Part shown: positions 10,171-38,049 of the stretch, piece after piece
Layout of the letters: every line of letters starts with the position of its first letter
Position numbering within the stretch: position 1 is the stretch's first letter
Position numbers and translations under genes: made by a program
From: Actinomycetota bacterium
GTDB taxonomy: Bacteria; Actinomycetota; Actinomycetes; Nanopelagicales; Nanopelagicaceae
Reading direction: 5' to 3'
Assembly (NCBI GenBank): GCA_009698615.1
Contig: WLPU01000006.1
Location: 1 to 64,000, forward strand
DNA: 64,000 nt
The notes under the pieces: model-generated
Seen by the model: the letters and a program-made list of their open reading frames with translations, nothing else
Database searches by the model: none
Told to the model about the DNA's origin: nothing

Positions 10171-11195
10171 GTTCGGCCTCGCATCCTGATGGCAGTAAAC
10201 ATTTTCTGAATCTGCCCCAATGAAAGTGCAGTTAATAAGACGAGTCCAAGTGCGATATTGAGCGTTTCAAGCCCAATGCCTTGAACTGAAAGTCCTTGGC
10301 GAATAATGAGTGTTAGCAGCGTCCCAATGAAAGTACCCAGTACTGCTACAGAACCGCCCGCCAGAAGCGTTCCGCCTAAAACGGGTCCTAAAAATGATGG
10401 CAGCATAAACTGGCTCCCGATTGCAGCAGTAAATGAGCCGTTAGTGAAGGCCAACATGATCCCAGCCAAGCCCGCCAATAACCCAGACATCAGGTGAGCC
10501 GTAATGACGCGACGATCAACTGGAATGCCGGAAAGTTTTGCTGCCCGCAAGTTTGATCCAGTTGATAAAAGTTCGCGACCTAATCGAGTCTTTGAGAATA
10601 TAAAGCCGATAACAGCTATTGCGATGATTGCTGGCACTAACATCATCGGGAAAATCTTTGGTCCGCAGACCCCAGCGACGCAGTATTGATGCCAACTGGT
10701 GTTTCGCCAGAACTCCATACCAGCAGGCTTAGTTGTAAACGCGGTTGTTGCACCGGTAAAGGTGACATAGATGTATGTAACAAAACCTAAAAGTGCAAAA
10801 TCCATAGCAAGGGTGACAATAAATGCATTGACTTGGGATTTTACAATAATCCAACCCGTAAGCGCACCCAAAGATGCTCCTACGAATAAACCCATGAACA
10901 AACCTAAAAGTAGACTCACATGCAAATATTGATATGCGGCCCCTGCCGCAAGTGCTGAAACTGCAGCCATGCGTCCTACCGCGAGGTTGAGGTGGCCGAT
11001 TGAGAGTGCGCACAACTGCGCCAAGCCGATGACCGAAAGAGTCGCCGCATCTCGAATCAGTGGATAGATAACAAAGTCTGCATTGAAAAAAGCTGAGTTT
11101 TTCAATCCAAAGAATATAAATAGCGCAACTGTCAAAAGTGAGAGCACAAATCTCTGGTCAGAAACCAGTGATTTTATTTTGTGCGCTACGTTCAC
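10167..11195 (-). CDS. CUT2 sugar ABC transporter permease (RbsC type), second copy
   Basis: A 342-residue paralogue of the neighbouring permease, with matching landmarks: GHLNLAVGRMAA near residue 70, STGSNLRAAKLSGI in the cytoplasmic loop, and GPVLGGTLLAGGSVAVLGT toward the C-terminus. A loop at about 150-180 (KPAGMEFWRN...HQYCVAGVCGP) has two cysteines and is absent from the partner. Likely forms a heterodimer with the partner. It overlaps both flanking genes by 4 bp, so all are translationally coupled. Confidence 0.92.
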   Translation of the reverse strand: MNVAHKIKSLVSDQRFVLSLLTVALFIFFGLKNSAFFNADFVIYPLIRDAATLSVIGLAQLCALSIGHLNLAVGRMAAVSALAAGAAYQYLHVSLLLGLFMGLFVGASLGALTGWIIVKSQVNAFIVTLAMDFALLGFVTYIYVTFTGATTAFTTKPAGMEFWRNTSWHQYCVAGVCGPKIFPMMLVPAIIAIAVIGFIFSKTRLGRELLSTGSNLRAAKLSGIPVDRRVITAHLMSGLLAGLAGIMLAFTNGSFTAAIGSQFMLPSFLGPVLGGTLLAGGSVAVLGTFIGTLLTLIIRQGLSVQGIGLETLNIALGLVLLTALSLGQIQKMFTAIRMRGRT

Positions 11196-12280
11196 GAAAC
11201 CCTCAACTTGTCTATAGCGTCGAAATTCCAGTCTATGCCAATTCCTGGAGTAGTTGGAACAAGTGCGAAGCCATTTTCAATCTTAAGTTCAGTATGAGTG
11301 ATCCCTCGAAGTTGTGGAATGTGTTCGACATAGAGACCGTTCGGGACTGCAGCCGCCAACGAAACATGAATCTCCATCAAAAAGTGAGGGCAGACTTTGA
11401 CGTTATAAGACTCAGCTAAATGGGCTACTTTCAGCCATGGGGTAATCCCGCCGATTCGAGCGACATCTACTTGAATAATTCCGGCAGCTTGCTGGTGTAA
11501 ATACTGCTGGAATTGCATCACCGAATACATAGTCTCACCTACAGCAACGGGGATACTTGTCGATTTAGCGAGTGTGGCATGGCCGACAACATCATCTGCC
11601 GGTAGAGGTTCTTCAAACCAAAAAAGATCAAGAGGCTCAAAAGCTTTTGCACGTCGTTTGGCTTCGGCGACCGTAAGCGATGTATTTGCATCAACCATGA
11701 TGTGCATTTTCGGCCCAACAGTTTGTCGCACGGCACTCAGGCGCTCGACATCTTCATGGAGATTGGGTTTTCCTACCTTGAGTTTTACTCCGGGCCAGCC
11801 ACGCTTCTGTGATTGTGCAGCCCCCTTGACCAATTCATCCGTTGTCAGATGTAGCCATCCGCCTTCGGTGTCATAAAGCGGAACTCGATCGCGAAATCCT
11901 CCGGCAGCAATCGCTAGTGATTGATTCGCGCGCTTGCATTTGAGATCCCAAATAGCTGTATCAATTGCGGCAACGGCTAATGAAGTAATTGCTCCGGTGG
12001 CCGTCGCCCGAGTGGAGTTATAAATATCGCTCCAAACTTTCTCAACATACTGCGAATCCATCCCTGTAAGTTTCGGGACGAGATAGTCACGCAGGAGAGC
12101 AAGTACCGCTGTTCCACCTGTACCGATTGTGTAGCTGTATCCAACTCCAGTGTTTCCATCGGCTGTTGTGATTCGAACAAAAATAGTTTCTTGCTTAAGG
12201 AATGCCTGAACTGAGTCAGTGCGAACGGTTTCAACCGGAATATCTATCAGAAAGACTTCGGCTGATGTAATGATGCTCAT
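11192..12280 (-). CDS. Enolase-superfamily sugar-acid dehydratase or cycloisomerase (MR/MLE type)
   Basis: A 362-residue mandelate-racemase-subgroup enzyme. The active-site pattern is present: KLKVG (two lysines near 165), metal ligands Asp in MVDANTS, Glu in WFEEPLP and Glu in AVGETM, then the Asp-His dyad (QVDVARIGG and CPHF) and Glu in YVEHI. Such enzymes abstract the proton next to a carboxylate. Galactarate or talarate dehydratase, sugar-lactone cycloisomerase and related activities are possible. It is coupled to the CUT2 transporter, so it should act on that sugar or its acid. ATG 12280 is preferred to TTG 12295, with GGGAAAG upstream. Confidence 0.85.
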   Translation of the reverse strand: MSIITSAEVFLIDIPVETVRTDSVQAFLKQETIFVRITTADGNTGVGYSYTIGTGGTAVLALLRDYLVPKLTGMDSQYVEKVWSDIYNSTRATATGAITSLAVAAIDTAIWDLKCKRANQSLAIAAGGFRDRVPLYDTEGGWLHLTTDELVKGAAQSQKRGWPGVKLKVGKPNLHEDVERLSAVRQTVGPKMHIMVDANTSLTVAEAKRRAKAFEPLDLFWFEEPLPADDVVGHATLAKSTSIPVAVGETMYSVMQFQQYLHQQAAGIIQVDVARIGGITPWLKVAHLAESYNVKVCPHFLMEIHVSLAAAVPNGLYVEHIPQLRGITHTELKIENGFALVPTTPGIGIDWNFDAIDKLRVS

Positions 12281-12325
12281 GGACCACTTTCCCAAATTTC
12301 TCTATTTCTTACTTTACTTGATAGA

Positions 12326-14276: not shown

Positions 14277-15575
14277 TTAATTATTTACCCATGCTGGCCC
14301 TGTAGGAAATGTATATTCAGCAATACTTTCGGCGAACATCTCTGCACCGGCTCCTGGTTGCGTTGGTGCCATGTAACGAGCGCGCTTAATTTGAGTGGGC
14401 ACCACAAAATGTTCATGAAGGTGGTCCACAAACTCCACCACCCGATCTGGATTTTCCCCGCCGACTGCTACGAAATCAAACATGGCAAGGTGCTGAACCA
14501 TTTCACAGAGCCCGACTCCGCCTGCATGTGGGCAAACCGGGATCCCAAATTTAGCTGCCATCAAGATCATTGCGATATTTTCATTGACTCCAGCTACCCG
14601 TGAGGCATCTATCTGCATGAAAGAAAGGGCTTTCGATTGCAGCATTTGCTTGAAAACAACTCGATTAGCTACATGCTCCCCCGTCGCAACTCGAACAGGG
14701 GCAATTGCCTTTGCGATTGCTGCATGACCGACAACATCATCTGGGTTTGTTGGCTCCTCTACCCAATGCAAGTTCACATCCCCCAGCGAATTAATCCAAT
14801 CAATCGCAGCAGGAACATCCCATACTTGGTTTGCATCAATAGCTAAACGAACATCAGGGCCAATCGCTTCGCGCGCCAAACGCAGGCGACGCTTATCGTC
14901 TTCAAGCGATACGCCACACTTTAATTTAATGAGGGTAAATCCGTCAGCGACGGCTTCTTTTGCAAGGCGAACCATCTTTTCGTCGGTATAACCTAACCAT
15001 CCAGGAGTTGTTGTATAGGCGGGCAAACCATCTTTTAGTAGCGCCGCTTCATTCTTGGCACGATTGCCTTCAGCTTTTTTGAGAATTTCTAGAGCTTCTA
15101 CGGGTGTGATCGCATCACTGAGGTATCTGAAGTCAACAAGGTCAACAATTTCTTTAGGTGACATCTCTGATAAAACTTTCCAGAGTGGTTTCCCTGCGCG
15201 CTTCGAAATTAAATCCCAGACGGCATTAATGACAGCACCGGCGGCCATATGGGTGACGCCCTTTTCTGGACCCAGCCACCGCATCTGAGAATCCCTAACT
15301 AAACTTCGGGCAAAATCTCCCATGGTGCGTGCAAGATCATCAACATCGCGGCCCACGGCATACCCAGCGAGTAAATCTATAGCTGCACATTCCAAATCGT
15401 TGCCGCGCCCAATGGTGAAGACGAGGCTATGACCTGCCAGTGCGTTGTCATCTGTTTCCAGAACTAGGTATGCAGCCGAATAATCTGGATCTTGATTCAT
15501 CGCATCTGAGCCATCTAGGCCTCGTGAGGTCGGAAAACGCACATCTACGGTATGAAATCCCGTGATCTTCGGCAT
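14277..15575 (-). CDS. L-fuconate dehydratase
   Basis: A 432-residue enolase-superfamily enzyme that removes water from L-fuconate to give 2-keto-3-deoxy-L-fuconate. The N-terminal specificity region [19 protein letters not shown] and [14 protein letters not shown] are characteristic of this subfamily, as are TTTPGWLGY and the KLKCG lysine pair. Metal ligands are Asp in AIDANQVW, Glu in VEEPTNPDD and Glu in ATGEH; the catalytic His is in CPHAGG. Length matches the known fuconate dehydratases (about 440). It is first in the operon with the GntR gene and diverges from the other fucose-pathway genes. Ribosome site AGAAGGA is present. Confidence 0.93.
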
Positions 15576-21952: not shown

Positions 21953-22570
21953 TTACCTTATCTGCTTTGCAGCGCTAATGGCGTTGAGAAAACCTTGAAC
22001 ATTGTTTCCAATTTCACCGATGCCACCTTTAGTTAGTGGCCCACCAAGTCCCACTAGTGATGCGCCAGCGGCAAACCATTCGGCCACTGATGTCGTCGTC
22101 ATGCCACCAGTAGGGCACCAGATATTTCCCGGAAAAGGATCTCGCAAGGCTTTCAGGTGGCCAGGGCCATACGTGGAGGCGGGGAATAGTTTAAGAACAT
22201 CAGCGCCAGCCTTGAGTGCAACAGCGACATCAGTGGCAGATGCAATTCCCGGGATTGAAAGTAAGCCGGCAGATTTTGTCGCTGAAATTACTTCGGGGTC
22301 GGTATTAGGCGAGACAATAAATGAAGCCCCTGCATTCTTGGCGCGAAGAACATCAGCCGGATCCAATATTGTGCCAACTCCTACGCATACGCCATCGCGC
22401 TTTGCTAACGAGGTGATGATTTCGAATGCACCTGGGTTTGTCATTGTTACTTCAATACAAGAAAGCCCTGCACTCACTATTGCATCTGCAATTTGTTGCC
22501 CTGTTTTTTGATCCGGGCCTCGAACAATCGCGACGGCGCCACTGCTGATTAATCTATCAATGACGTTCAT
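21953..22570 (-). CDS. eda: 2-dehydro-3-deoxy-phosphogluconate (KDPG) aldolase family
   Basis: A 205-residue TIM-barrel aldolase. The Schiff-base lysine is in DVLKLFPAS (about residue 130), the catalytic Glu in IEVTMTNP (about 41), and the phosphate-binding loop is CPTGGMT. It splits KDPG into pyruvate and glyceraldehyde 3-phosphate; some relatives use KDPGal or unphosphorylated acids. Start and the stop of the kinase gene overlap (TAATG), so the two are coupled. It is the terminal step for the galacturonate route assembled from this window. Confidence 0.92.
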   Translation of the reverse strand: MNVIDRLISSGAVAIVRGPDQKTGQQIADAIVSAGLSCIEVTMTNPGAFEIITSLAKRDGVCVGVGTILDPADVLRAKNAGASFIVSPNTDPEVISATKSAGLLSIPGIASATDVAVALKAGADVLKLFPASTYGPGHLKALRDPFPGNIWCPTGGMTTTSVAEWFAAGASLVGLGGPLTKGGIGEIGNNVQGFLNAISAAKQIR

Positions 22571-23520
22571 TACGCTCCCTTTGTTAGTTCGGCAATTATT
22601 GCAGGATCGGTTAGACCATTTCGACCAGTGGGTAATCCGGCCCAGTCACCAAATTGGCTAGCAACTCGTGCCCCAGAAATTGCGCCTTGCTTGATTGCAT
22701 CCAATGTTCCAAGGCCACCAAGTAGTCCCGCGATCACACCACCGGTGAAAGCATCTCCTGATCCCACAGGATCAACGGCATTTACTTTCGGTGGAGAAAT
22801 CTCTCCGTGCTGACCGTTAATCGAGTAACGAATTGGTTGGTCTCCTTTTGTCATTATGACATTTATGCACCCGCGTGAGTGAGCCAGGGCAATTGCCTTT
22901 CCTGGATCACTCTCACCGAAAACTGCAGCATATTCATCTTCGCCTCCAATGAGTAAATCAATATCTTGCGCAAGAGGCTCCAAAACAAGTCGGGCTTGTC
23001 GCTCTGTCCATAACTTGCGGCGGATATTGAGATCAAAACTTCGGGGTACCCCAAGTTCACGGGATTTATCCAGTGCAAACTTCACAGCTGCAGATGCTGT
23101 CGTAGAAATTGCGCAGGTAATGCCAGTGGTGTGCAACCACTTCGAATTCTTTAATACTTCAAGGTCAATGTCAGATGGTGAAATTGTTGATGCTGCTGCC
23201 CCTTTTCGAAGGTAGGTCGCCTCTACGGGGCGTGTTGACCCAGGATTACGAATCATCGTTCCAGTAAATTCTGGAACTCGCTTGACCGCTGAGACATCGA
23301 CTCCCTCTGCAAGAAAATCATTGAGTAACGCTGTACCCAATTCATCTTGCCCAAAATGTGTATAGAAGTGAGCCTTCAGCCCCAATCGTGAAACCGCTAC
23401 GGCAACATTCCCTTCAGCCCCGGCTGTACTTCGACTAAAGGATTTAGCGTCGACAACATTGTCGGTATCGCCGGCAAGGAAAAGTGCCATCGCCTCGCCA
23501 AAGGTGTAGAGATCAGGCAT
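22570..23520 (-). CDS. 2-keto-3-deoxygluconate kinase (PfkB family)
   Basis: A 316-residue ribokinase-fold kinase. The N-terminal substrate region is TFGEAMALFLAGD, followed by FSRSTAGAEGNVAVAVSRLG. The C-terminal catalytic motif is VDPVGSGDAFTGG, with Asp as the base. This arrangement is typical of KDG kinases, which make KDPG for the aldolase encoded immediately downstream. TAATG overlaps couple it to both neighbours. A fructokinase-like alternative is less likely given the aldolase partner. Confidence 0.9.
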   Translation of the reverse strand: MPDLYTFGEAMALFLAGDTDNVVDAKSFSRSTAGAEGNVAVAVSRLGLKAHFYTHFGQDELGTALLNDFLAEGVDVSAVKRVPEFTGTMIRNPGSTRPVEATYLRKGAAASTISPSDIDLEVLKNSKWLHTTGITCAISTTASAAVKFALDKSRELGVPRSFDLNIRRKLWTERQARLVLEPLAQDIDLLIGGEDEYAAVFGESDPGKAIALAHSRGCINVIMTKGDQPIRYSINGQHGEISPPKVNAVDPVGSGDAFTGGVIAGLLGGLGTLDAIKQGAISGARVASQFGDWAGLPTGRNGLTDPAIIAELTKGA

Positions 23521-28516: not shown

Positions 28517-29559
28517 TGGATTTAGGTCCATTTAAAGATCTGCCATCAGTCCTTAATTTTGCTCCGCCTCCACTTCCACAAATTGATGGCGCAGGACTCA
28601 TTAGACTTTTTGGGAGCCTTCCGCAATTTCCAAGCGACTTCGAAATTTCACGTGGGAAAAGTTGGAACTATGACGGAGTAACAATTTCTGAAATTAGTTG
28701 GTCAACTGGATGGGGACCACGCACCGAAGCACTGCTCTTGATACCCGAAGGCGTTGCAACCCCACTGCCTGGTGTGCTATTCCTGCACAGCCACGATGAC
28801 GTAAAAGAATTTGGAAAGGAAAAAGTTGTTGAAGGTGCGACACCTATGCCTGATCACCTGCAATGGCTCAGGCGTGACCACTACGGAAATCGCGCTCCAG
28901 CAAATGAATTAGCGAAAAAAGGTTTTGCAGTCCTTGCCTTTGATTGCTTCATGTGGGGATCTCGCCGCTTTCCTATGGAAAACATGCCGGATCGGCTGAG
29001 TGAAATTCTTGAAGGAATGGATTACGAAAGATTAGCCGTCATGCACGAATCCATGGCTCTTTCTAAATATCTCAGTCTCTTTGGCGCCACCCTTGCTGGT
29101 CTACTTAACTTTGATGACAGAGTTGCGCTAGCCGTGGCACAAAGCCTGCCAGAAATGTCTGCCTCGATTAGTGCGATTGGACTTTCGGGAGGCGGTTGCC
29201 GAGCCATTTATTTACATGCAACTTCTGCATCATTGCAAGCGACGGTTTCGATTGGCGCAATGGCCACTTTTGATTCAATGGTGGCCTCTCATGTAGCACC
29301 GCATTCATGGATGTTTTTCCCGCACGGAATTGCATCGCAAACCGATTGGCCAGGGGTTGCAATGATCGGAGCACCCAAGCCGCTCTACATACAATATTGC
29401 GGAAATGATCAACTCTTCACGCAAGCAGGGATGAACAAAGCGCACGATCACCTACTTGCGAACCACGCAAATTATCGTGGAGATTCATACCCTGTTAAAC
29501 ATTCCTTTACGGAGCAAATGCAAGAGGATGCGTTTAAGTGGATGAGCACTCATGCATAA
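28516..29559 (+). CDS. Alpha/beta hydrolase (dienelactone-hydrolase / abhydrolase-7 type)
   Basis: A 347-residue hydrolase. The nucleophile elbow is GLSGGG (about 210), the acid is probably the Asp in YCGNDQLF (about 295), and the His lies in PVKHSFTEQ near the C-terminus. LFLHSHDDVKEFGKE gives the oxyanion region. No signal peptide, so it is cytoplasmic. ATG 28516 shares one base with the stop of the preceding gene. In this operon it may remove an ester (acetyl or methyl) from a uronate before isomerisation; that is inference. Its own stop overlaps the isomerase start by 8 bp. Confidence 0.8.
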   Translation: MDLGPFKDLPSVLNFAPPPLPQIDGAGLIRLFGSLPQFPSDFEISRGKSWNYDGVTISEISWSTGWGPRTEALLLIPEGVATPLPGVLFLHSHDDVKEFGKEKVVEGATPMPDHLQWLRRDHYGNRAPANELAKKGFAVLAFDCFMWGSRRFPMENMPDRLSEILEGMDYERLAVMHESMALSKYLSLFGATLAGLLNFDDRVALAVAQSLPEMSASISAIGLSGGGCRAIYLHATSASLQATVSIGAMATFDSMVASHVAPHSWMFFPHGIASQTDWPGVAMIGAPKPLYIQYCGNDQLFTQAGMNKAHDHLLANHANYRGDSYPVKHSFTEQMQEDAFKWMSTHA

Positions 29560-30919
29560 GGATCGATATCTCGGCACCGATCCTCAATCTCTTCCACTTG
29601 CTCGCGAGCTTTATGACACCATGCGTGCATACCCAATTATTTCACCACATGGGCATGTAGACCCGCTGCTACTTCTCGAAAATAAACCGTTTACGAACCC
29701 GGTAGAACTATTGATCACTCCAGATCATTACCTCACGCGCATGCTGATGAGCCAAGGAATTGGCCTGGAACAACTTCAGGGCGATCCATTAGAGGCCTGG
29801 AAACTTTTTGCTGAAAACTGGAAGCTCTTTCGATCTACTCCTTCTCGGATCTGGATGCATGAAATCTTCTCCTCTCTTTTTGATATTTACGAACTCCTTA
29901 CTCCAGAAAGTGCAGAGCACATTTATCAGCGCATTAATGAACGTTTAACTGAGCCTGATTTCACGCCCCAAGCACTCTTTAAGAGATTTGATATTGAGGT
30001 ACTTGCAACCACTGATGCCACATCCCAGCCACTTGATACACATGCACAATTGGCGACGTTAGATCTTGGTGGTCGAGTGATTCCTACATTCAGACCAGAT
30101 GATGTGAGCGATCCTGAGAGAGCAGATTGGCGTAATTCCATCGATTCCCTCGCAGCTGCGACCGGTGAATCTTGCGATAGTTTCGCAGGGTTCCTAGAAG
30201 CTCTGCGGATTCGGCGAAAGTATTTTAAAGATCACGGCGCTACCGCAACTGATCACGGAGTGCTCAATCCGCAAACTCTCAATTTGGCGAAAAATGATAA
30301 GGAAAAACTCTTTAAACAACTTCTTAGCGGGCAAATAGCGCCGGAGGCAAGTGCGACATTTCGTGCTGTCATGCTCTTGGAACACGCACGCATGGCTTCC
30401 GATGATGGTTTGGTGATGCAACTGCATCCGGGTTCTTTACGAGATTATTCCTCAGGTATCGCAAGCCTCTACGGTAAAGATAAGGGATTTGATATTCCTG
30501 TCACCACAACATATGTACGCGAACTCCGAGCGCTGTTGGAGGAAGTTGGTTTTCATCCAAATTTCAGAATGGTTATTTTTACACTCGATGAAAGCGTTTA
30601 CTCTCGCGAATTGGCACCTCTTGCAGGTGCTTACCCGTCAATCAGACTTGGTCCACCGTGGTGGTTCCACGACAGCCTCAACGGGATGGAGCGCTGGCGA
30701 GATGCAATTACCGAAACAGCGGGTTTCTACAATACTGTCGGTTTCATCGACGACACACGTGCTTTTTGTTCTATTCCCGTTCGCCACGATGTCGCACGTA
30801 GGTTTGATGCTGGATATCTATCTCGCGAAGTTTCGCGCCATCGTCTCACTAAGGAAGAAGCCCTCGAAGTTGCAGGAGATATTGCATACAAACTCTCCAA
30901 AGATTTCTTCAACCTCTAA
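29552..30919 (+). CDS. uxaC: Uronate (glucuronate/galacturonate) isomerase
   Basis: A 455-residue amidohydrolase-superfamily isomerase. The metal site PHGHVDP is at about 33-39; other family features are FKRFDIEVLATTDATSQPL, LQLHPGSLRDYS-like MQLHPGSLRDYS, GPPWWFHDS, and DDTRAFCSIPVRHD near the end. It converts D-galacturonate to D-tagaturonate or D-glucuronate to D-fructuronate. Its stop overlaps the reductase start (TAATG), so the product is handed on. Length is close to the usual 465-475. Confidence 0.93.
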   Translation: MHKDRYLGTDPQSLPLARELYDTMRAYPIISPHGHVDPLLLLENKPFTNPVELLITPDHYLTRMLMSQGIGLEQLQGDPLEAWKLFAENWKLFRSTPSRIWMHEIFSSLFDIYELLTPESAEHIYQRINERLTEPDFTPQALFKRFDIEVLATTDATSQPLDTHAQLATLDLGGRVIPTFRPDDVSDPERADWRNSIDSLAAATGESCDSFAGFLEALRIRRKYFKDHGATATDHGVLNPQTLNLAKNDKEKLFKQLLSGQIAPEASATFRAVMLLEHARMASDDGLVMQLHPGSLRDYSSGIASLYGKDKGFDIPVTTTYVRELRALLEEVGFHPNFRMVIFTLDESVYSRELAPLAGAYPSIRLGPPWWFHDSLNGMERWRDAITETAGFYNTVGFIDDTRAFCSIPVRHDVARRFDAGYLSREVSRHRLTKEEALEVAGDIAYKLSKDFFNL

Positions 30920-32298
30920 TGTCAAAACTCGCTCGCGCAAACTATTTGAACTACAGCGCTGTAAACCCTCCTCAGTACTCCATGGATCAGGTAAAAATTG
31001 GCGTGTTACACATGGGATTAGGAGCATTTCATCGTGCTCACCAAGCGGTTTTCTTTGACCGCCTTTTGCGCAGCGGCAATCTCAATTACGGAATTTGTGG
31101 GGTGTCGCAAAGGAGTAGCACGGTTGCAGATTCAATGAACGCCCAGGATTGTCTTTACACGGTGAACGCCCAGGACGGGCAAGCAAACACGCCAACGATA
31201 ATCGGTGCGCTGCGTGAAGCACGATATTTTCCGCGAGATCTCGAACGGATATTAGAAATCGCGCGATCCCCTGATTTGAAAATGATTACCCTCACCGTGA
31301 GCGAGAAGGCCTATCGCAGCGATGATGCTTCTCAACTTCCGCAGCGCCTAGTTACTATCTTGCGGGCTCGTTATGAATCGGGACTACCAGGGATCGCCGT
31401 GATCTCTTGTGACAATCTCCCTAGTAACGGCGCTTTCACTCGCAAAATAATTCTGGATGTAATAACTGAAAAGAGCAGTGGCTTCTTTGAGTGGGTAAAT
31501 ACTCAGATTCGTTTTCCAAACTCTATGGTCGACCGCATCGTTCCTGCCATCACTTCCAAATCTATTGATGACTTTGAGCAACGTTATGGCTATAGGGATG
31601 ACTCGCTTATTTCAACTGAGCCTTACAACGAATGGGTGATTGAAGATGATGCACTCTCTCAAGATCTGACCCCTGCCGGAATTAGATTTGTCCCCCGCGT
31701 GGCACCATATGAATTAACTAAGATCAGATTATTTAATGGAAATCATTCAACTCTTGCCTACATCAGCCAACTGTGCGGCATCGAGTATGTCCATGAGGCA
31801 ATCATCGATTCAGCGATTGCGCCCTTCGTTAGTCGTTTGCAAGAAGAAGAACTTGGACTTTCGTTCAAGCCCCCGCACGATATTGCCCTCAAGGAATACG
31901 CCCGCACTGTGCGAAAACGTGTAAGCAATCCGACTCTTCTGCACCGAGCTGAGCAAATTGCTATGGATGGATCACAAAAATTGCCACAAAGGCTTTTTTC
32001 TCCAGCAAACGACTTGTTGCAACTAGGACTTCCCACTCAGCGGATTTCCATGGCGATTGCTGCCTGGGTGCACTTTCTTGCAACCAAGGATCAAGTAAAT
32101 GATCCATTAGCTGACCAATTGCAACCCCTTGCTCGACTGAGCGAGCCAATGAGTGCGGTCAGCCAGACGTTGGGATTTGCTCAACTTGCAACGAAAGTTA
32201 ATCCGGCGCTTTTCCCAATGATTGCTGCATGGCTTGAAAAACTACGCTCGACGCCGATCAAAGAAGTCTTAATAGAACTAGAGCGTGGATCCGTATAA
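30919..32298 (+). CDS. Tagaturonate/fructuronate reductase (long-chain mannitol dehydrogenase family)
   Basis: A 459-residue long-chain polyol dehydrogenase. The N-terminal nucleotide-binding region is HMGLGAFHRAHQAV, and the catalytic set KIRLFNGNHS has Lys, Asn and His in the spacing known for this family. It reduces a keto-uronate to an aldonate with NADH. UxuB (to mannonate) and UxaB (to altronate) both belong here and the exact product cannot be assigned from motifs. Because an altronate-dehydratase-like set follows and no mannonate dehydratase is seen, altronate is the better guess. The 3' end overlaps the convergent gene by 21 bp. Confidence 0.87.
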   Translation: MSKLARANYLNYSAVNPPQYSMDQVKIGVLHMGLGAFHRAHQAVFFDRLLRSGNLNYGICGVSQRSSTVADSMNAQDCLYTVNAQDGQANTPTIIGALREARYFPRDLERILEIARSPDLKMITLTVSEKAYRSDDASQLPQRLVTILRARYESGLPGIAVISCDNLPSNGAFTRKIILDVITEKSSGFFEWVNTQIRFPNSMVDRIVPAITSKSIDDFEQRYGYRDDSLISTEPYNEWVIEDDALSQDLTPAGIRFVPRVAPYELTKIRLFNGNHSTLAYISQLCGIEYVHEAIIDSAIAPFVSRLQEEELGLSFKPPHDIALKEYARTVRKRVSNPTLLHRAEQIAMDGSQKLPQRLFSPANDLLQLGLPTQRISMAIAAWVHFLATKDQVNDPLADQLQPLARLSEPMSAVSQTLGFAQLATKVNPALFPMIAAWLEKLRSTPIKEVLIELERGSV

Positions 32299-33435
32299 AC
32301 GCGAGAGATTGAATTCGTGCTGCCCATTGATCTCGGCTTTTGTTAGCTCGCCATTTGCCACTCTAATGATTTCATCATAAATCAAAGCCCCCACTTCCTC
32401 TAACGTTTGGAGCCCATCAGCAATTGTTCCGGCGTTGAGATCAATGAGATCGGTTAATACATTTCCCATTTCGCTATTGGTCGCGACTTTAATTGTGGGA
32501 ATAACTGCAGATCCCGTTGGTGTTCCGCGCCCTGTTGTAAAAACTGTGATGTTTACACCGGCTGCTGCAAATCCCGAAAGTTGTTCTATGTCGTGCCCGG
32601 GCGTATCCATAAAGTAAAGGCCCGGAGTGGGAGCAACATCAGCAAATTCAAGAACTCCAGTAAATTGCGCGCTGCCGGCTTTTTTAGCCGCGCCTAAGGA
32701 TTTTTCCTCTAACGTAGAAAGTCCGCCCTCAATATTGCCTCGAGAAGGTTGCGCTCCACGAATGTCAATACCTTCGTAAGAGATTGACTTCTCATAGCGT
32801 GCAACCACATCAATGATTTGCTGTGCAACAGTGGGATTAATTGCTCGAGCTGCCAATAAATGTTCAGAGCCTAATATCTCCATGGTTTCCGCCAAAATTG
32901 ATGTTGCTCCCTGGGCTACCAGTTGATCACTGGCAATACCCAGCGCTGGATTGGCGGTGATGCCTGAATATGCATCAGATCCCCCACATTCAAGACCTAA
33001 AACAATCGCACTCATCGGCGCAATATCGCGTTTCTCTTTCACTGACTGTCCAACAAGCTTGGTGGCAATTTCGATAGCTCGGCTTCGTAAATTGCTCATG
33101 GAACCTTCGTGCTTCAGGGAAAGCACATGTAGTGGCACCGAACCTTGCGTGCGAGACCTCTCAACAATCTCATTTTCAATCTGCGTGCCAATCATCAACA
33201 CAATTGTTGCAAAATTATTAGGGTTATTTCCTATTCCAGATAAAACTTTAGAGATACGTTCAAAATCTGAATCCACTTCTCCAGCCCAGTCATGACTTAC
33301 CGCAACTGCGCCAGTGACAAGATCCTCGACTTCACGTGAAACATTGCTGAGGACTTGGTGGAGGGGCAGGAGCAAAACATGATTTCGAAACCCCCATCGC
33401 CCATCCGCGCGAGCAAATGCCCTCAGTTCTTTCAT
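32278..33435 (-). CDS. UxaA-family dehydratase large subunit, second-half motifs kept
   Basis: A 385-residue protein of the altronate/galactarate dehydratase C-terminal family, similar in length to stand-alone large subunits such as SuyB. It starts with RADGRWGFRNHVLLLP as usual. The first-half motifs are lost: where the family has HQxGC it has SHDWAGE (about 47-53), GxGCE is MIGTQIE (about 81-87), and QExGG is LKHEGS. The second half is normal: GLECGGSDAYSG (147-158), then TANPALG, MDTPGHD, FTTGRGTPTGSA and PTIKVATNSE. The start codon overlaps the stop of the 251-residue gene. The two together carry a complete motif set. Predicted role: dehydration of altronate to KDG as part of a heteromer. 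Confidence 0.82.
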   Translation of the reverse strand: MKELRAFARADGRWGFRNHVLLLPLHQVLSNVSREVEDLVTGAVAVSHDWAGEVDSDFERISKVLSGIGNNPNNFATIVLMIGTQIENEIVERSRTQGSVPLHVLSLKHEGSMSNLRSRAIEIATKLVGQSVKEKRDIAPMSAIVLGLECGGSDAYSGITANPALGIASDQLVAQGATSILAETMEILGSEHLLAARAINPTVAQQIIDVVARYEKSISYEGIDIRGAQPSRGNIEGGLSTLEEKSLGAAKKAGSAQFTGVLEFADVAPTPGLYFMDTPGHDIEQLSGFAAAGVNITVFTTGRGTPTGSAVIPTIKVATNSEMGNVLTDLIDLNAGTIADGLQTLEEVGALIYDEIIRVANGELTKAEINGQHEFNLSRLYGSTL

Positions 33436-34190
33436 TAGACGCTTCGAACCAGTCGAGGGGCAACAATCTCGCCAGAGGAATTCGCCTCACTTTTGGTTTG
33501 CTCACCGCGAGCAACTGTGGAGATCTTTGCTGCTATCTCTTGATGTGATGCGTCATGTGATAGGTCAAACTCTTGCGAAAATGCTAAGTGAAGTTCGCTG
33601 TCACTGGCGATGTTGATGACGGGAATCAGTGGAAAGCCAGTGGGTGGTTGCATGGAATCTGTAAATGAAACTATGAGGTGAACCTTCGCTGACATCAGAG
33701 CCGAGAAACCTTCTGAAGATTCGACAGTATGGAGGCCTTCGGCTTGCAAAAAAGCTACAAGTTCACCTGCATTACCTTGACTGGAAATTCCCACAACAAT
33801 TGGATCCTCAGCATGGCGAGGCTCTGGGAACCTACTTGCAAGTGAATTTGCCGCGACCACTCCTTTCGAAACCGCATCATCGACGCCTGCGCTTTCTTGA
33901 ATCACAAGGTATTTTGTTGCTGGATTTCTAGTAACAATCTTTTCAGCGAGTTCGTTTCCTTGGATGGTTTCACACCCAAGCGCGACCACTAACACTGAGG
34001 CAACATTGGGATGAGATGCCAAGTCAATAAAGAAATTATCAATCCCAGCTACATCGACCCCGATAATTGCGCAACCATGCTGGTGAGCAAAGGTGACTCC
34101 TCCAACTTCTTGTGCAATGCGACGAGAGACATGAGTCGAGCAAACGACGGATGGCAATATCAATTGATGGCTTCGAATGCCTGCTTTCAT
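33435..34190 (-). CDS. UxaA-family short paralogue, first-half motifs kept
   Basis: A 251-residue protein related to the same large-subunit domain but internally shortened. It begins GIRSHQLILPSVVCSTHVSR and keeps HQHGC (36-40), ALGCE (70-74) and QESAG (98-102), which the 385-residue partner has lost. It lacks the GLECGGSD...TANPA block of about 100 residues, and then resumes with a region matching the end of the family (FTDSMQPPTGFPLIPVINIA). It overlaps the SAF-domain gene by 4 bp and the large gene by 1 bp, so all three are coupled. It looks like a maintained subunit rather than a decaying gene: no frameshifts or stops, and conserved residues are exactly the missing ones. Confidence 0.8.
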   Translation of the reverse strand: MKAGIRSHQLILPSVVCSTHVSRRIAQEVGGVTFAHQHGCAIIGVDVAGIDNFFIDLASHPNVASVLVVALGCETIQGNELAEKIVTRNPATKYLVIQESAGVDDAVSKGVVAANSLASRFPEPRHAEDPIVVGISSQGNAGELVAFLQAEGLHTVESSEGFSALMSAKVHLIVSFTDSMQPPTGFPLIPVINIASDSELHLAFSQEFDLSHDASHQEIAAKISTVARGEQTKSEANSSGEIVAPRLVRSV

Positions 34191-34462
34191 GCCTGTTCCG
34201 TCGAGAGCCGATCGCCTAAAACATTATGTGTGTGAACGTGAGCGCCTTTGGCAATATCCGTCGTGGCATGACCCATCCGTTCGCCATATTTAATAATGCC
34301 GGCACCTTTTTCTATAAAGCGCGTCGCGATTTTATGTCCGCGAGGGATTGCACCAACGGCAATAATTTCGTGGTCATCTTGTGAAATAACGTGTCCCACA
34401 ACTACATCGCCCAAACACACTGCGATGTTGTCATCTGCATGGAGAAAAAGAACTTCTCTCAT
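34187..34462 (-). CDS. UxaA-family small subunit (SAF domain)
   Basis: A 91-residue stand-alone SAF domain equal to the N-terminal domain of E. coli-type altronate dehydratase. Features: LHADDNIAVCLGDV, IPRGHKIATRFIEKG, GIIKYGERMGHAT and KGAHVHTHNVLGD, with the HVHTHN histidines typical of this domain. It starts one base after the stop of the IlvD/Edd gene. Known two-gene relatives (small SAF plus large subunit) exist; here a third gene is interposed. Confidence 0.92.
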   Translation of the reverse strand: MREVLFLHADDNIAVCLGDVVVGHVISQDDHEIIAVGAIPRGHKIATRFIEKGAGIIKYGERMGHATTDIAKGAHVHTHNVLGDRLSTEQA

Positions 34463-36196
34463 CTAGTGGGAGTGGCGAGGAACTGCACTGCCTGAGCCGC
34501 CTACCAAGAAATCAAGATCAGCACCGTTGTTAGCTTGCATCACGTGATCCACATAAATCTTGGCCCATCCACGGGTTGGTCCGCCAGTTGGCGCCTTCCA
34601 CTTTGCTTTGCGCTGCGCTAAGACTTCTGGTGAAACAAGTAGGTCGAGGCGGCGATTTTCAACGTCGAGTTCAATCTCGTCACCCGTCTCAACAAGTGCC
34701 AGTGGGCCACCGATTGCAGATTCGGGGGCCACGTGCAAGACAACAGTTCCGAATGCCGTACCACTCATGCGAGCATCTGAAATACGAATCATGTCAAATA
34801 CGCCTTGTGCTAACAATTTAGTTGGCATAGATACGTTGCCGACTTCAGGAAACCCTGGATACCCCTTAGGGCCAGAATGTTGCAACACGATAATGTCATC
34901 TTTTTCGACTTTCATATTCATGTCATCGGCTGCAATGTTGTATTCCTCAACGGTGCTAAATACGAGCGCTTTCCCACGATGCTTAAGAAGGTGTGGTGAA
35001 GCTGCCGAAATCTTCAAGACGGCTCCATCTGGAGCTAGAGATCCACGTAAGACAACAGTTCCGGATCCAGCACTTTGAAACGGTTCGGCAACAGTGGTGA
35101 TGACATCTTCATTCCAATTTTTCGCCTTAGCAATATTCTCAGCCACAGTTTTTCCAGTAACGGTGATGTGGTCGCGATGGATCAAATTACCGAGTTCTGC
35201 CATCACAACTGGAATTCCACCAGCGTAGAAGAAATCCTCCATCAAGTACTTGCCCGATGGCATCAAATTAACAACTACTGGTACGTCACGTGCCAGGGAA
35301 TCGAAATCAGCTAGGTCAAGTTTTACGCCTACACGGCCTGCCAGTGCTAATAAGTGGACTACGGCGTTGGTGGATCCACCCACTGCCGCGTTCACTCTGA
35401 TCGCATTTTCAAATGCATGACGGTTAAGAATTTTGGAAAGTTTTAGATCTTCCTTCACCATCTCGACAATCCGACGTCCAGCTATTTGAGCCATTGCATA
35501 GCGACGAGAATCAACTGCAGGGATTGCCGCACTTCCAGGCAATTGCATACCAAGTGCCTCTGTCACAGATGCCATGGTTGATGCCGTACCCATGGTCATA
35601 CAGTGTCCAGCACTTCTTGCCATGCAAGTTTCGGCTTCAGTAAATTCTTCCTCTGTCATCGTGCCAGCACGAACTTCATCTGCAAACTTCCACACATCTG
35701 TTCCGGAACCAATATCTTTACCACGGAATTTTCCGTTGAGCATTGGTCCACCAGTCATCATGAGCGTTGGAATATCAACACTCGCGGCACCCATCAACAT
35801 ACCTGGCGTTGTCTTATCGCAACCTGCCAACAAAATCACACCATCCATAGGATTTGCGCGAATTGATTCTTCAACTTCCATGGCCAGCAAGTTGCGATAC
35901 AGCATTGTTGTTGGGCGCATGATTGGTTCGCCCAGTGACATGGCAGGGAATGCCAGTGGGAACCCGCCCGCTTCCCAGACTCCACGCTTTATTGATTCTG
36001 CAACTTTATTGAGGTGTGCATTGCATGGCGTGAACTCAGACCAAGTAGAACCAATACCAATAACTGGCCGACCATCAAAGAGATCGGGAGCAAAACCTTG
36101 ATTGCGCATCCACGAACGGTGAATAAATCCATTTTTGCCCGTGTCTGCAAACCACTCAGAACTACGACGCTTACCCTTGTTCTTATCTTCGCTCAT
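34463..36196 (-). CDS. IlvD/Edd-family sugar-acid dehydratase (L-arabinonate type)
   Basis: A 577-residue dehydratase. Fe-S ligand cysteines are seen in TPCNAHL (about 58), AGCDKTTP (about 126) and GHCMTMGTAS (about 198). The N-terminal region (SSEWFADTG, IHRSWMRNQG) and MSLGEPIMRPTTMLYRNLLA are like L-arabinonate/D-xylonate dehydratases rather than dihydroxy-acid dehydratase. It would turn a pentonate or similar aldonate into the 2-keto-3-deoxy acid. A -10 box (TAGGAT, 36203-36208) six bases before ATG 36196 gives this and the following UxaA-like genes their own leaderless transcript. Confidence 0.9.
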   Translation of the reverse strand: MSEDKNKGKRRSSEWFADTGKNGFIHRSWMRNQGFAPDLFDGRPVIGIGSTWSEFTPCNAHLNKVAESIKRGVWEAGGFPLAFPAMSLGEPIMRPTTMLYRNLLAMEVEESIRANPMDGVILLAGCDKTTPGMLMGAASVDIPTLMMTGGPMLNGKFRGKDIGSGTDVWKFADEVRAGTMTEEEFTEAETCMARSAGHCMTMGTASTMASVTEALGMQLPGSAAIPAVDSRRYAMAQIAGRRIVEMVKEDLKLSKILNRHAFENAIRVNAAVGGSTNAVVHLLALAGRVGVKLDLADFDSLARDVPVVVNLMPSGKYLMEDFFYAGGIPVVMAELGNLIHRDHITVTGKTVAENIAKAKNWNEDVITTVAEPFQSAGSGTVVLRGSLAPDGAVLKISAASPHLLKHRGKALVFSTVEEYNIAADDMNMKVEKDDIIVLQHSGPKGYPGFPEVGNVSMPTKLLAQGVFDMIRISDARMSGTAFGTVVLHVAPESAIGGPLALVETGDEIELDVENRRLDLLVSPEVLAQRKAKWKAPTGGPTRGWAKIYVDHVMQANNGADLDFLVGGSGSAVPRHSH

Positions 36197-36253: not shown

Positions 36254-37165
36254 TTACTTCCCTTGAGATCCGTCCACGATAATATTCTTTAGCGTTTTTC
36301 CGGATGCTAAGAGTTCTAGTTGAGATTGGATCAATTTTCGCGCTCGGGGCTCAAATGCTGATGTATTTCCGCCAACATGAGGGGCGATCAAGACCCCTTT
36401 TGCGCTCCACAATGGATGCCCAGCTGGCAGGGGTTCAGGATCTGTCACATCAAGGGCGGCCATAATCCGTCCAGAATTCAATTCGGCAACAAGGGCATCT
36501 GTATTCACGATTGGGCCGCGGGCAACGTTTACTAAAAGGGCGCCGTCTTTCATGAGTGCCAAACGCTTTGCATCAAAGAGATTACGACTTTCATCATTGA
36601 GCGGCAAAATTAAAATAACGACATCCAGTGTTGGAAGGTAAGAATCGAACTTGTCCATTGTGATCGAACCATCGCGGCCAGATTTAGAAAATCCAATTAC
36701 TTCAACATCAAAGCCAGAAAGATTGCGAGCCACCGTTTGCCCAATGGAGCCAAAGCCAACTACCCCGATGCGCTTGTCGTTGATGGATTCATAACGCGCA
36801 TGGGTCCATTCGCCCTTATCTTGCGAGCGCACAAAGGTTGGAAATCCCCGCAATGATGCAATCGTTAAGCCCACAGCTAACTCAGCCGTTGAGGCATCGT
36901 GGATTCCACGACCATTGCACAGAGTCATTCCAGGTCGCAAAAATTCCATTGCATCGTCATAACCAGCATTGGGCATATGCAGGTACCTAAGATTTGGCAT
37001 CGCCCGACTGTGCTCAAGGGCGGGGCGACCTCCCATATAAGAAGGTACATAGAAAGTTATCGATGAAAGGTCCGCACTCTCAATGGGAGTATTGGCGGGT
37101 GAAAGCTTGGTTAATCCGGCAGGAACTTTTAAATCATCCCACTGAGTCCATACAACCTCGGTCAT
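36254..37165 (-). CDS. D-2-hydroxyacid dehydrogenase family protein
   Basis: A 303-residue NAD(P)-dependent reductase. The nucleotide-binding GFGSIG is at about 138-143. Catalytic residues are Arg in NVARGPIV, Glu in DVTDPEPLP and His in APHVGGNT. This family reduces 2-keto acids such as glyoxylate, hydroxypyruvate or pyruvate, and also some 2-keto sugar acids. It is coupled to the FAH-family gene upstream (overlapping stop/start) and so probably acts in the same sugar-acid route. The substrate is not determinable. Confidence 0.88.
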   Translation of the reverse strand: MTEVVWTQWDDLKVPAGLTKLSPANTPIESADLSSITFYVPSYMGGRPALEHSRAMPNLRYLHMPNAGYDDAMEFLRPGMTLCNGRGIHDASTAELAVGLTIASLRGFPTFVRSQDKGEWTHARYESINDKRIGVVGFGSIGQTVARNLSGFDVEVIGFSKSGRDGSITMDKFDSYLPTLDVVILILPLNDESRNLFDAKRLALMKDGALLVNVARGPIVNTDALVAELNSGRIMAALDVTDPEPLPAGHPLWSAKGVLIAPHVGGNTSAFEPRARKLIQSQLELLASGKTLKNIIVDGSQGK

Positions 37166-38049
37166 TACTTCGCTCCGGTTCCTAAGGTTCGGGTATGTAT
37201 ATCTAAGGCAATAACGCTGACTCTATTGGAGAGCGTGCCAACCTTATCGACGGTAATCGAAACTACATCATTTGCCTCGAGGGAAATATCCAATGGCGGA
37301 ACAATTCCCGTCCCAGTCGAGAGGATGACTCCATCTGGAAAGATTTGACACCTAAATAGATAAGAAACCAAGTCGGCAAATGTGCGATGCAGGGCAGCCA
37401 AAGAAGTCTCTGCCTGCCAAATGATTTGAGTACCCCGCTCAATCTTTGCCTTGATTGCAAGGGCCTGAAGATCATCTATCTCCCAAATTGGAGTAATTGT
37501 GGGCCCAAGGGAGGCGGAGCCAACATAGATTTTTGCTTGCGATAAGTAGAGTGGATTTTCGCCTTCGATGGTGCGAGCTGTCACATCATTGCAAATAGTT
37601 AAGCCCACTACTTCTTGGAATCGATTGATCACAATTGCAACTTCTGGTTCTGGAACTGAAGCATGAGAATCTTCACGTATTCCAATGTCTACTCCTGTGC
37701 CGAGTGTTCGTCCCGCAGTGCCCTTAAAAAATAATTCTGGGCGATCTGCTTCATACACTCGCTGATACACATCTGGAACTCCGCTTTCTTCTTTGCGGGC
37801 ATCTCGAGATCGCAAGTAAGTAACGCCCGCACCCCACACTTCAGTTTCGGGAGCAACTGGTGCGACAAGTTTTCCTTGAACGCTTGGACCTTGTTTTCCA
37901 TCAATAAGTCCTTGAAGCTGAGAAACTGAAAGATGAAGCGCGTCGGTCAATGTTGTTATGCCGGGAATCGAAAAATAGCCAGCCTCGCCAGCAATCACTA
38001 AATGATGTGAACTCTCCGAGGACTCAATGACTGCCAGTGCTTTGCTCAT
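37165..38049 (-). CDS. FAH-family protein, probable 2-keto-3-deoxy-pentonate dehydratase
   Basis: A 294-residue fumarylacetoacetate-hydrolase-fold protein. Seen: VWGAGVTYLRSRDARKEES, RPELFFKGTAGRTLGTG, metal-site acidic PEPEVAIVIN, and LSTGTGIVPP. The closest style is the 2-keto-3-deoxy-D-arabinonate dehydratase group, which makes 2-oxoglutarate semialdehyde, not the diketo-deoxyfuconate hydrolase group, which has a different N-terminal signature. Together with the IlvD/Edd dehydratase it would form the non-phosphorylating pentose route. First gene of its operon, with a leaderless-type promoter. Confidence 0.8.
   Translation of the reverse strand: MSKALAVIESSESSHHLVIAGEAGYFSIPGITTLTDALHLSVSQLQGLIDGKQGPSVQGKLVAPVAPETEVWGAGVTYLRSRDARKEESGVPDVYQRVYEADRPELFFKGTAGRTLGTGVDIGIREDSHASVPEPEVAIVINRFQEVVGLTICNDVTARTIEGENPLYLSQAKIYVGSASLGPTITPIWEIDDLQALAIKAKIERGTQIIWQAETSLAALHRTFADLVSYLFRCQIFPDGVILSTGTGIVPPLDISLEANDVVSITVDKVGTLSNRVSVIALDIHTRTLGTGAK

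Follow-up and report, generated by a model that had tools for sequence, protein, structure and literature searches.

The four conserved cysteines of the UxaA/GarD superfamily are divided between two large chains of a three-gene locus in actinobacteria and haloarchaea

Sugar-acid dehydratases of the UxaA/GarD superfamily usually comprise a SAF domain and a single large chain. Watanabe and colleagues (PMC6336799) proposed that four cysteines, residues 134, 173, 208 and 276 in a D-arabinonate dehydratase, serve as ferric-ion ligands; they are conserved across the superfamily except in SuyAB, where SuyB forms a two-subunit enzyme with SuyA. Here we describe a locus of an actinobacterium of the order Nanopelagicales (assembly GCA_009698615.1) in which a trio of genes replaces the usual arrangement. 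It lies in the window that we analysed, the first 64,000 nucleotides of contig WLPU01000006.1. From these sequences we infer the complex, its metal site and its substrate, and we put at roughly three in four the probability that the three products form one obligate hetero-oligomeric, iron-dependent sugar-acid dehydratase of the superfamily, with a composite iron site. The genes are as follows.

34187..34462, minus strand: SAF subunit, 91 residues (Pfam PF08666, 23.4 bits, cut-off 21)
33435..34190, minus strand: short subunit, 251 residues (Pfam GD_AH_second, domain 2, plus a reduced domain 3)
32278..33435, minus strand: long subunit, 385 residues (Pfam GD_AH_C, domain 3, plus a degenerate domain 2)

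The window sequence bears out these three open reading frames (ORFs) and their overlaps, 4 bp between SAF and short and 1 bp between short and long, as given in the original prediction, a model's reading of the DNA. The SAF protein is the counterpart of the N-terminal domain of UxaA and GarD and of SuyA. Pfam finds a full GD_AH_second domain in the short subunit, with a GD_AH_C remnant below threshold (21.1 vs 26.8 bits), and a complete GD_AH_C with a weak GD_AH_second in the long one. Across the three proteins SAF, GD_AH_second and GD_AH_C thus each exceed the cut-off somewhere, making up the domain set of the superfamily. The short and long genes are the only PF04295 genes of the host genome (1.50 Mb, 28 contigs, 99.98% complete), and no canonical four-cysteine UxaA was found elsewhere in it.

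Among 20 ordinary members of the family we counted 59 invariant columns, of which only four hold cysteine: C132, C166, C199 and C264 of UxaA. Because their spacing (34, 33 and 65 residues) is close to the published one (39, 35 and 68), they can safely be equated with the proposed ligands, a mapping drawn from the spacing rather than from an alignment of the published sequence. In every ordinary member compared, whether encoded by one gene or two, all four cysteines reside in one chain. In the trio, the short subunit holds cysteine only at the first three family positions (C17, C40 and C73) and also keeps Q98, while the long subunit holds only the fourth, C150, within GLECGGSD. The CGGSD block is missing from the short subunit; the long subunit, with SHDW and GTQIE in its degenerate domain 2, lacks the other three cysteines. 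Neither chain, then, carries the four cysteines that a single large chain of the superfamily would, and the two carry them jointly. All motifs lie where the original prediction had placed them, although its list overlooked the third cysteine kept in the short subunit (C17, in VVCST) and lost from the long one.

The same division extends to the other invariant residues. The short subunit keeps 12 of the 16 invariants of domain 2 and 6 of the 43 of domain 3, and the long subunit 7 of 16 and 43 of 43, so that the pair retains all 59 and none is lost from both. If losses were independent, the lack of any overlap between the 9 losses of the long subunit and the 41 of the short one would have a hypergeometric probability of 4e-6. 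The lost residues of each chain cluster by domain, as an active site divided by domain would predict. The complementary motif loss described by the original prediction held up in all 41 distinct orthologues of each chain as a 3+1 split of the cysteines: LPSVVC, HQxGC and LGCET each occur in 41/41 distinct short subunits and CGGSD in none, and ECGGSD occurs in 41/41 distinct long subunits and HxxGC in none, a pattern far beyond chance. Even the HDW that replaces the lost motif is conserved in all 41 distinct long subunits.

Absence of the trio from related genomes, which the original prediction had named as grounds for abandoning it, was looked for and not encountered. Strong matches to the trio number 36 among 201 genomes of the order, and a scan of genome contigs returned 34 relatives of the short subunit, all in actinobacterial metagenome-assembled genomes (MAGs); named carriers of the trio include Candidatus Nanopelagicaceae and Planktophila MAGs. 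The three genes lie together on one strand in all 66 loci retrieved, and in each of these SAF adjoins short, with the 4-bp overlap in 57. The ratio of nonsynonymous to synonymous substitution rates (dN/dS) is roughly 0.02-0.1 for the short and for the long subunit in close pairs, and dN was far below dS in every close pair tested. Purifying selection on both chains is strong, and the prediction's statement that neither gene is frameshifted holds. That each chain lacks family motifs might suggest two independent enzymes, or an enzyme beside a decaying pseudogene, but the purifying selection, the intact reading frames and the invariant adjacency and overlap largely refute this.

Proteins resembling the short subunit (343-374 residues) also occur as orphans in three genomes of the order (L135:2034-3158, L136:2789-3820 and L137:1520-2623), where neither a SAF nor a long partner stands alongside. 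The proteins of L135 and L136 retain cysteines 1 and 3, that of L137 none; all three genes adjoin probable ABC-transporter solute-binding genes.

Outside the order, SAF-short-long loci with the same split were found in three genomes of another family of the phylum, at 37% identity for the short and 47% for the long subunit; a wider search of that lineage's class returned only the same three genomes. A corresponding trio occurs on the seven haloarchaeal plasmids examined (L118, L119, L121-L125), in the gene order L1-SAF-L2. Of the four family positions, L1 has cysteine at the fourth alone and L2 at the first three alone, the domain 3 of L2 being full-length but degenerate; the exception is one of the seven L2 chains (Hada_L2), which has a stray cysteine aligned to the fourth position without the CGGSD motif. 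The haloarchaeal pair likewise keeps 59/59 invariants (P 0.03). These large chains are annotated merely as 'UxaA family hydrolase', and a literature search on split UxaA, haloarchaeal altronate dehydratase and uronate use by Nanopelagicales found nothing relevant. Neighbours of the haloarchaeal trio include four-carbon acid sugar kinase, PdxA, DHDPS-family and FAH genes.

In trees of domain 2, the long subunit groups with L1 (support 95/83, or 85/84 without long branches) and the short subunit with L2 (84/76, or 67/73 without long branches). The domain-3 tree did not join long and L1, yet their grouping was not rejected (approximately unbiased test, p 0.24). The trees thus favour one ancient split followed by transfer over two independent splits; either history would strengthen the functional reading.

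AlphaFold2 models of the single chains, built from window and related-locus sequences, reached a mean predicted local distance difference test score (pLDDT) of 82.7 for the short and 79.9 for the long subunit. Each chain models as a GarD fold: VIA-align superimposed the long model on GarD (PDB 6u7l) with Z 37.7 over 335 residues, and the short model with an alignment of 217 residues that extends across both domains (Z 16.1). The latter match came from VIA-align run on Foldseek's list; Foldseek by itself gave no significant match for the short subunit, and phmmer gave none among PDB sequences. The low-confidence stretches of the long model, 153-158 and 219-241, are among its most conserved loops, as might be expected if these loops required a partner or a metal, although the evidence is weak.

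A GarD fold with a reduced domain 3, lacking the active-site block of that domain, is also what one would expect of a catalytically irrelevant paralogue retained only for a structural role in a pseudo-dimer, of which it would form one half, like other dead-paralogue partners. A purely structural partner, however, would not be expected to hold three metal-type cysteines and Gln98 invariant in 41/41 orthologues, nor to keep the same set in a lineage only 37% identical and in haloarchaea. We therefore regard such a role of the short subunit as very improbable.

On the reading that we favour, the composite iron dehydratase arose as follows. A large ancestral chain of domains 2 and 3 would have been duplicated. 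One copy, now the short subunit or haloarchaeal L2, would have retained the part of the active site that domain 2 contributes, with cysteines 1-3 and the conserved Gln; in the second copy, the long subunit or L1, the domain-3 part would have persisted, with ECGGSD, which holds the fourth cysteine, and the motifs EEKSLG, GNxEGG and TGRG. The remaining half would have disappeared from each copy. Short and long would pair in the way that the chains of a GarD-type dimer do, one iron being held by three cysteines of the short and one of the long subunit, and SAF would close the active site as in SuyAB and GarD. In an undistorted dimer this arrangement requires domain 2 of one chain to meet domain 3 of its partner. 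The split thus predicts a contact between domains 2 and 3 of different chains in ordinary homodimeric members as well.

The interdependence of the large subunits claimed by the original prediction gains support from the complementary losses, the conservation of the trio, the purifying selection and the haloarchaeal 3+1 split; that they share one composite active site is what we infer from these. The broadest version, in which a single ancient duplication turned a homodimer into an obligate hetero-oligomer with a 3+1 metal site that spread to actinobacteria and haloarchaea, and in which all UxaA/GarD active sites lie between chains, we advance tentatively, at somewhat less than even odds.

Two observations weigh against a composite iron dehydratase acting on one sugar acid. 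In many genomes the trio sits in other gene contexts, so the substrate is not fixed. Furthermore, the same three cysteines and the Gln are gone from SuyB, which has no partner to compensate, so that such loss alone does not force the long subunit to depend on the short one. Indeed, SuyB of Paracoccus (where it lies beside a sulfate exporter), of Rhodococcus and of Nanopelagicales keeps only the fourth cysteine and has no short partner. By analogy, SAF and long might make up a complete, SuyAB-like two-subunit lyase, with the short subunit as an accessory, regulatory iron-binding or assembly factor.

Several features set the long subunit apart from SuyB. In SuyB the replacements are peculiar to it (PHAYGR, IEPx and KCGESD), and 11 of the 43 domain-3 invariants are missing; the long subunit, with SHDW, GTQIE and ECGGSD, shares none of these motifs, differs from SuyB in its domain-2 replacements and retains 43 of 43. 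Domain trees place SuyB as a group of its own. The short subunit keeps exactly the four domain-2 invariants lost from both long and SuyB, namely the three cysteines and the Gln, and in this order it is never missing beside the long subunit. Nor does the window present the SuyAB context of two genes by a sulfonate or sulfate exporter or sulfolactate dehydrogenases; the surroundings of the trio point to uronates, not sulfonates. Since expulsion of sulfite, unlike that of hydroxide, may need no iron Lewis acid, SuyB could drop its cysteines where a dehydratase would need a second chain. A SuyAB-like lyase with an accessory short subunit is therefore unlikely, though a more serious contender than a merely structural partner.

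A further class of large chain occurs in about 53 of the order's 201 genomes. Four of these chains (L131-L134) were inspected and are SuyB-like, with KCGESD. At three SuyB-like loci checked, a SuyA-like SAF gene stands alongside, and hydroxyacid-dehydrogenase-like and Ldh-family-like ORFs are adjacent, which suggests sulfolactate use by freshwater actinobacteria.

For the composite dehydratase, the genes around the trio indicate a substrate. In the isomerase pathway, UxaA produces 2-keto-3-deoxygluconate (KDG; PMC6353982). The window contains the following relevant genes.

29552..30919, plus strand: UxaC, uronate isomerase (NCBIfam NF002794, glucuronate isomerase, 499.8 bits, cut-off 387)
30919..32298, plus strand, convergent neighbour of the trio: mannitol-dehydrogenase-type uronate reductase, UxaB/UxuB-like (Pfam Mannitol_dh; NCBIfam fructuronate/tagaturonate reductase subfamilies match below cut-off)
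34463..36196, minus strand: ILVD/EDD-type sugar-acid dehydratase (NCBIfam NF004784, 889.5 bits, cut-off 539; next best L-arabinonate dehydratase, just under cut-off)
36254..38049, minus strand: 2-hydroxyacid dehydrogenase and FAH-family hydrolase of the same gene run (Pfam 2-Hacid_dh_C, FAA_hydrolase)
22570..23520, minus strand: PfkB-family kinase, probable KDG kinase (Pfam PfkB; best NCBIfam matches KDG/KDGal kinases, below cut-off)
21953..22570, minus strand: KDPG/KHG aldolase (Pfam PF01081)

UxaC, the uronate reductase, the probable KDG kinase and the KDPG aldolase supply the linkage expected of UxaA function. Across the order, the trio occurs in 22 of 23 genomes with UxaC and in 14 of 178 without it (Fisher P 6e-19). 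The host also encodes UxuA, which covers the mannonate branch and makes altronate the likelier substrate. Taken together, the host enzyme most likely turns D-altronate into KDG in galacturonate breakdown. The altronate label of the original prediction fits the window but does not extend to all trio loci, some of which lie beside rhamnulokinase-like or xylulokinase-like kinases, Zn-dependent alcohol dehydrogenases, glycerate kinase or FAH genes (ORF sequences read by eye). Given these varied neighbours and the 14 trio genomes that lack UxaC, the trio enzymes probably act, across the family, on several substrates.

The ILVD/EDD gene lies directly upstream of the trio on the same strand, placing two unrelated types of dehydratase in one gene run. 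With two enolase-superfamily dehydratase-like genes at 11192-12295 and 14277-15575, three unrelated classes of sugar-acid dehydratase are found in the window within about 25 kb.

The trio offers a clean natural case of complementary active-site degeneration, in two domains of life. It is also a natural cut through a little-understood family of iron enzymes, separating the residues of the metal half from those of the substrate half, and it makes the location of GarD/UxaA sites, within or between chains, directly testable. Annotation pipelines would label both large chains as 'UxaA family hydrolase' or as broken. In the sample searched, the trio provides the only UxaA-type large chain detected in freshwater actinobacteria besides the SuyB-like one, and uronate use would therefore be missed or misassigned if the trio were overlooked.

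In conclusion, the trio enzyme stays within the known UxaA/GarD superfamily and is not a separate kind of enzyme. The D-altronate dehydratase UxaA of Escherichia coli (b3091) shares with it SAF, GD_AH_second and GD_AH_C, the four cysteine positions and the pathway neighbours (UxaC, reductase and KDG route), but is a single chain of 495 residues, whereas the trio has three chains and a 3+1 division of the cysteines. The E. coli galactarate dehydratase GarD (b3128, PDB 6u7l) has the fold of both large chains but is one chain with all four cysteines, and the long subunit scores 218.9 bits against an NCBIfam cut-off of 730.85 bits for that enzyme. In the sulfolactate sulfo-lyase SuyAB, as in the trio, the SAF and large genes are separate and the large chain lacks the first three cysteines; unlike the trio, SuyAB has no third gene, carries the KCGESD and PHAYGR motifs and belongs to a sulfonate context. 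Two-gene UxaA-family dehydratases, exemplified by the heteromeric L-fuconate dehydratase (PMC6336799) and seen in Priestia megaterium and Escherichia albertii, also have a separate SAF gene, beside a large chain of ~390 residues, but there the lone large chain holds all four cysteines. The haloarchaeal UxaA-SAF-UxaA trios alone share the 3+1 split between two large chains, differing from the actinobacterial ones in the order long-SAF-second chain and in a second chain whose domain 3 is full-length, though degenerate.

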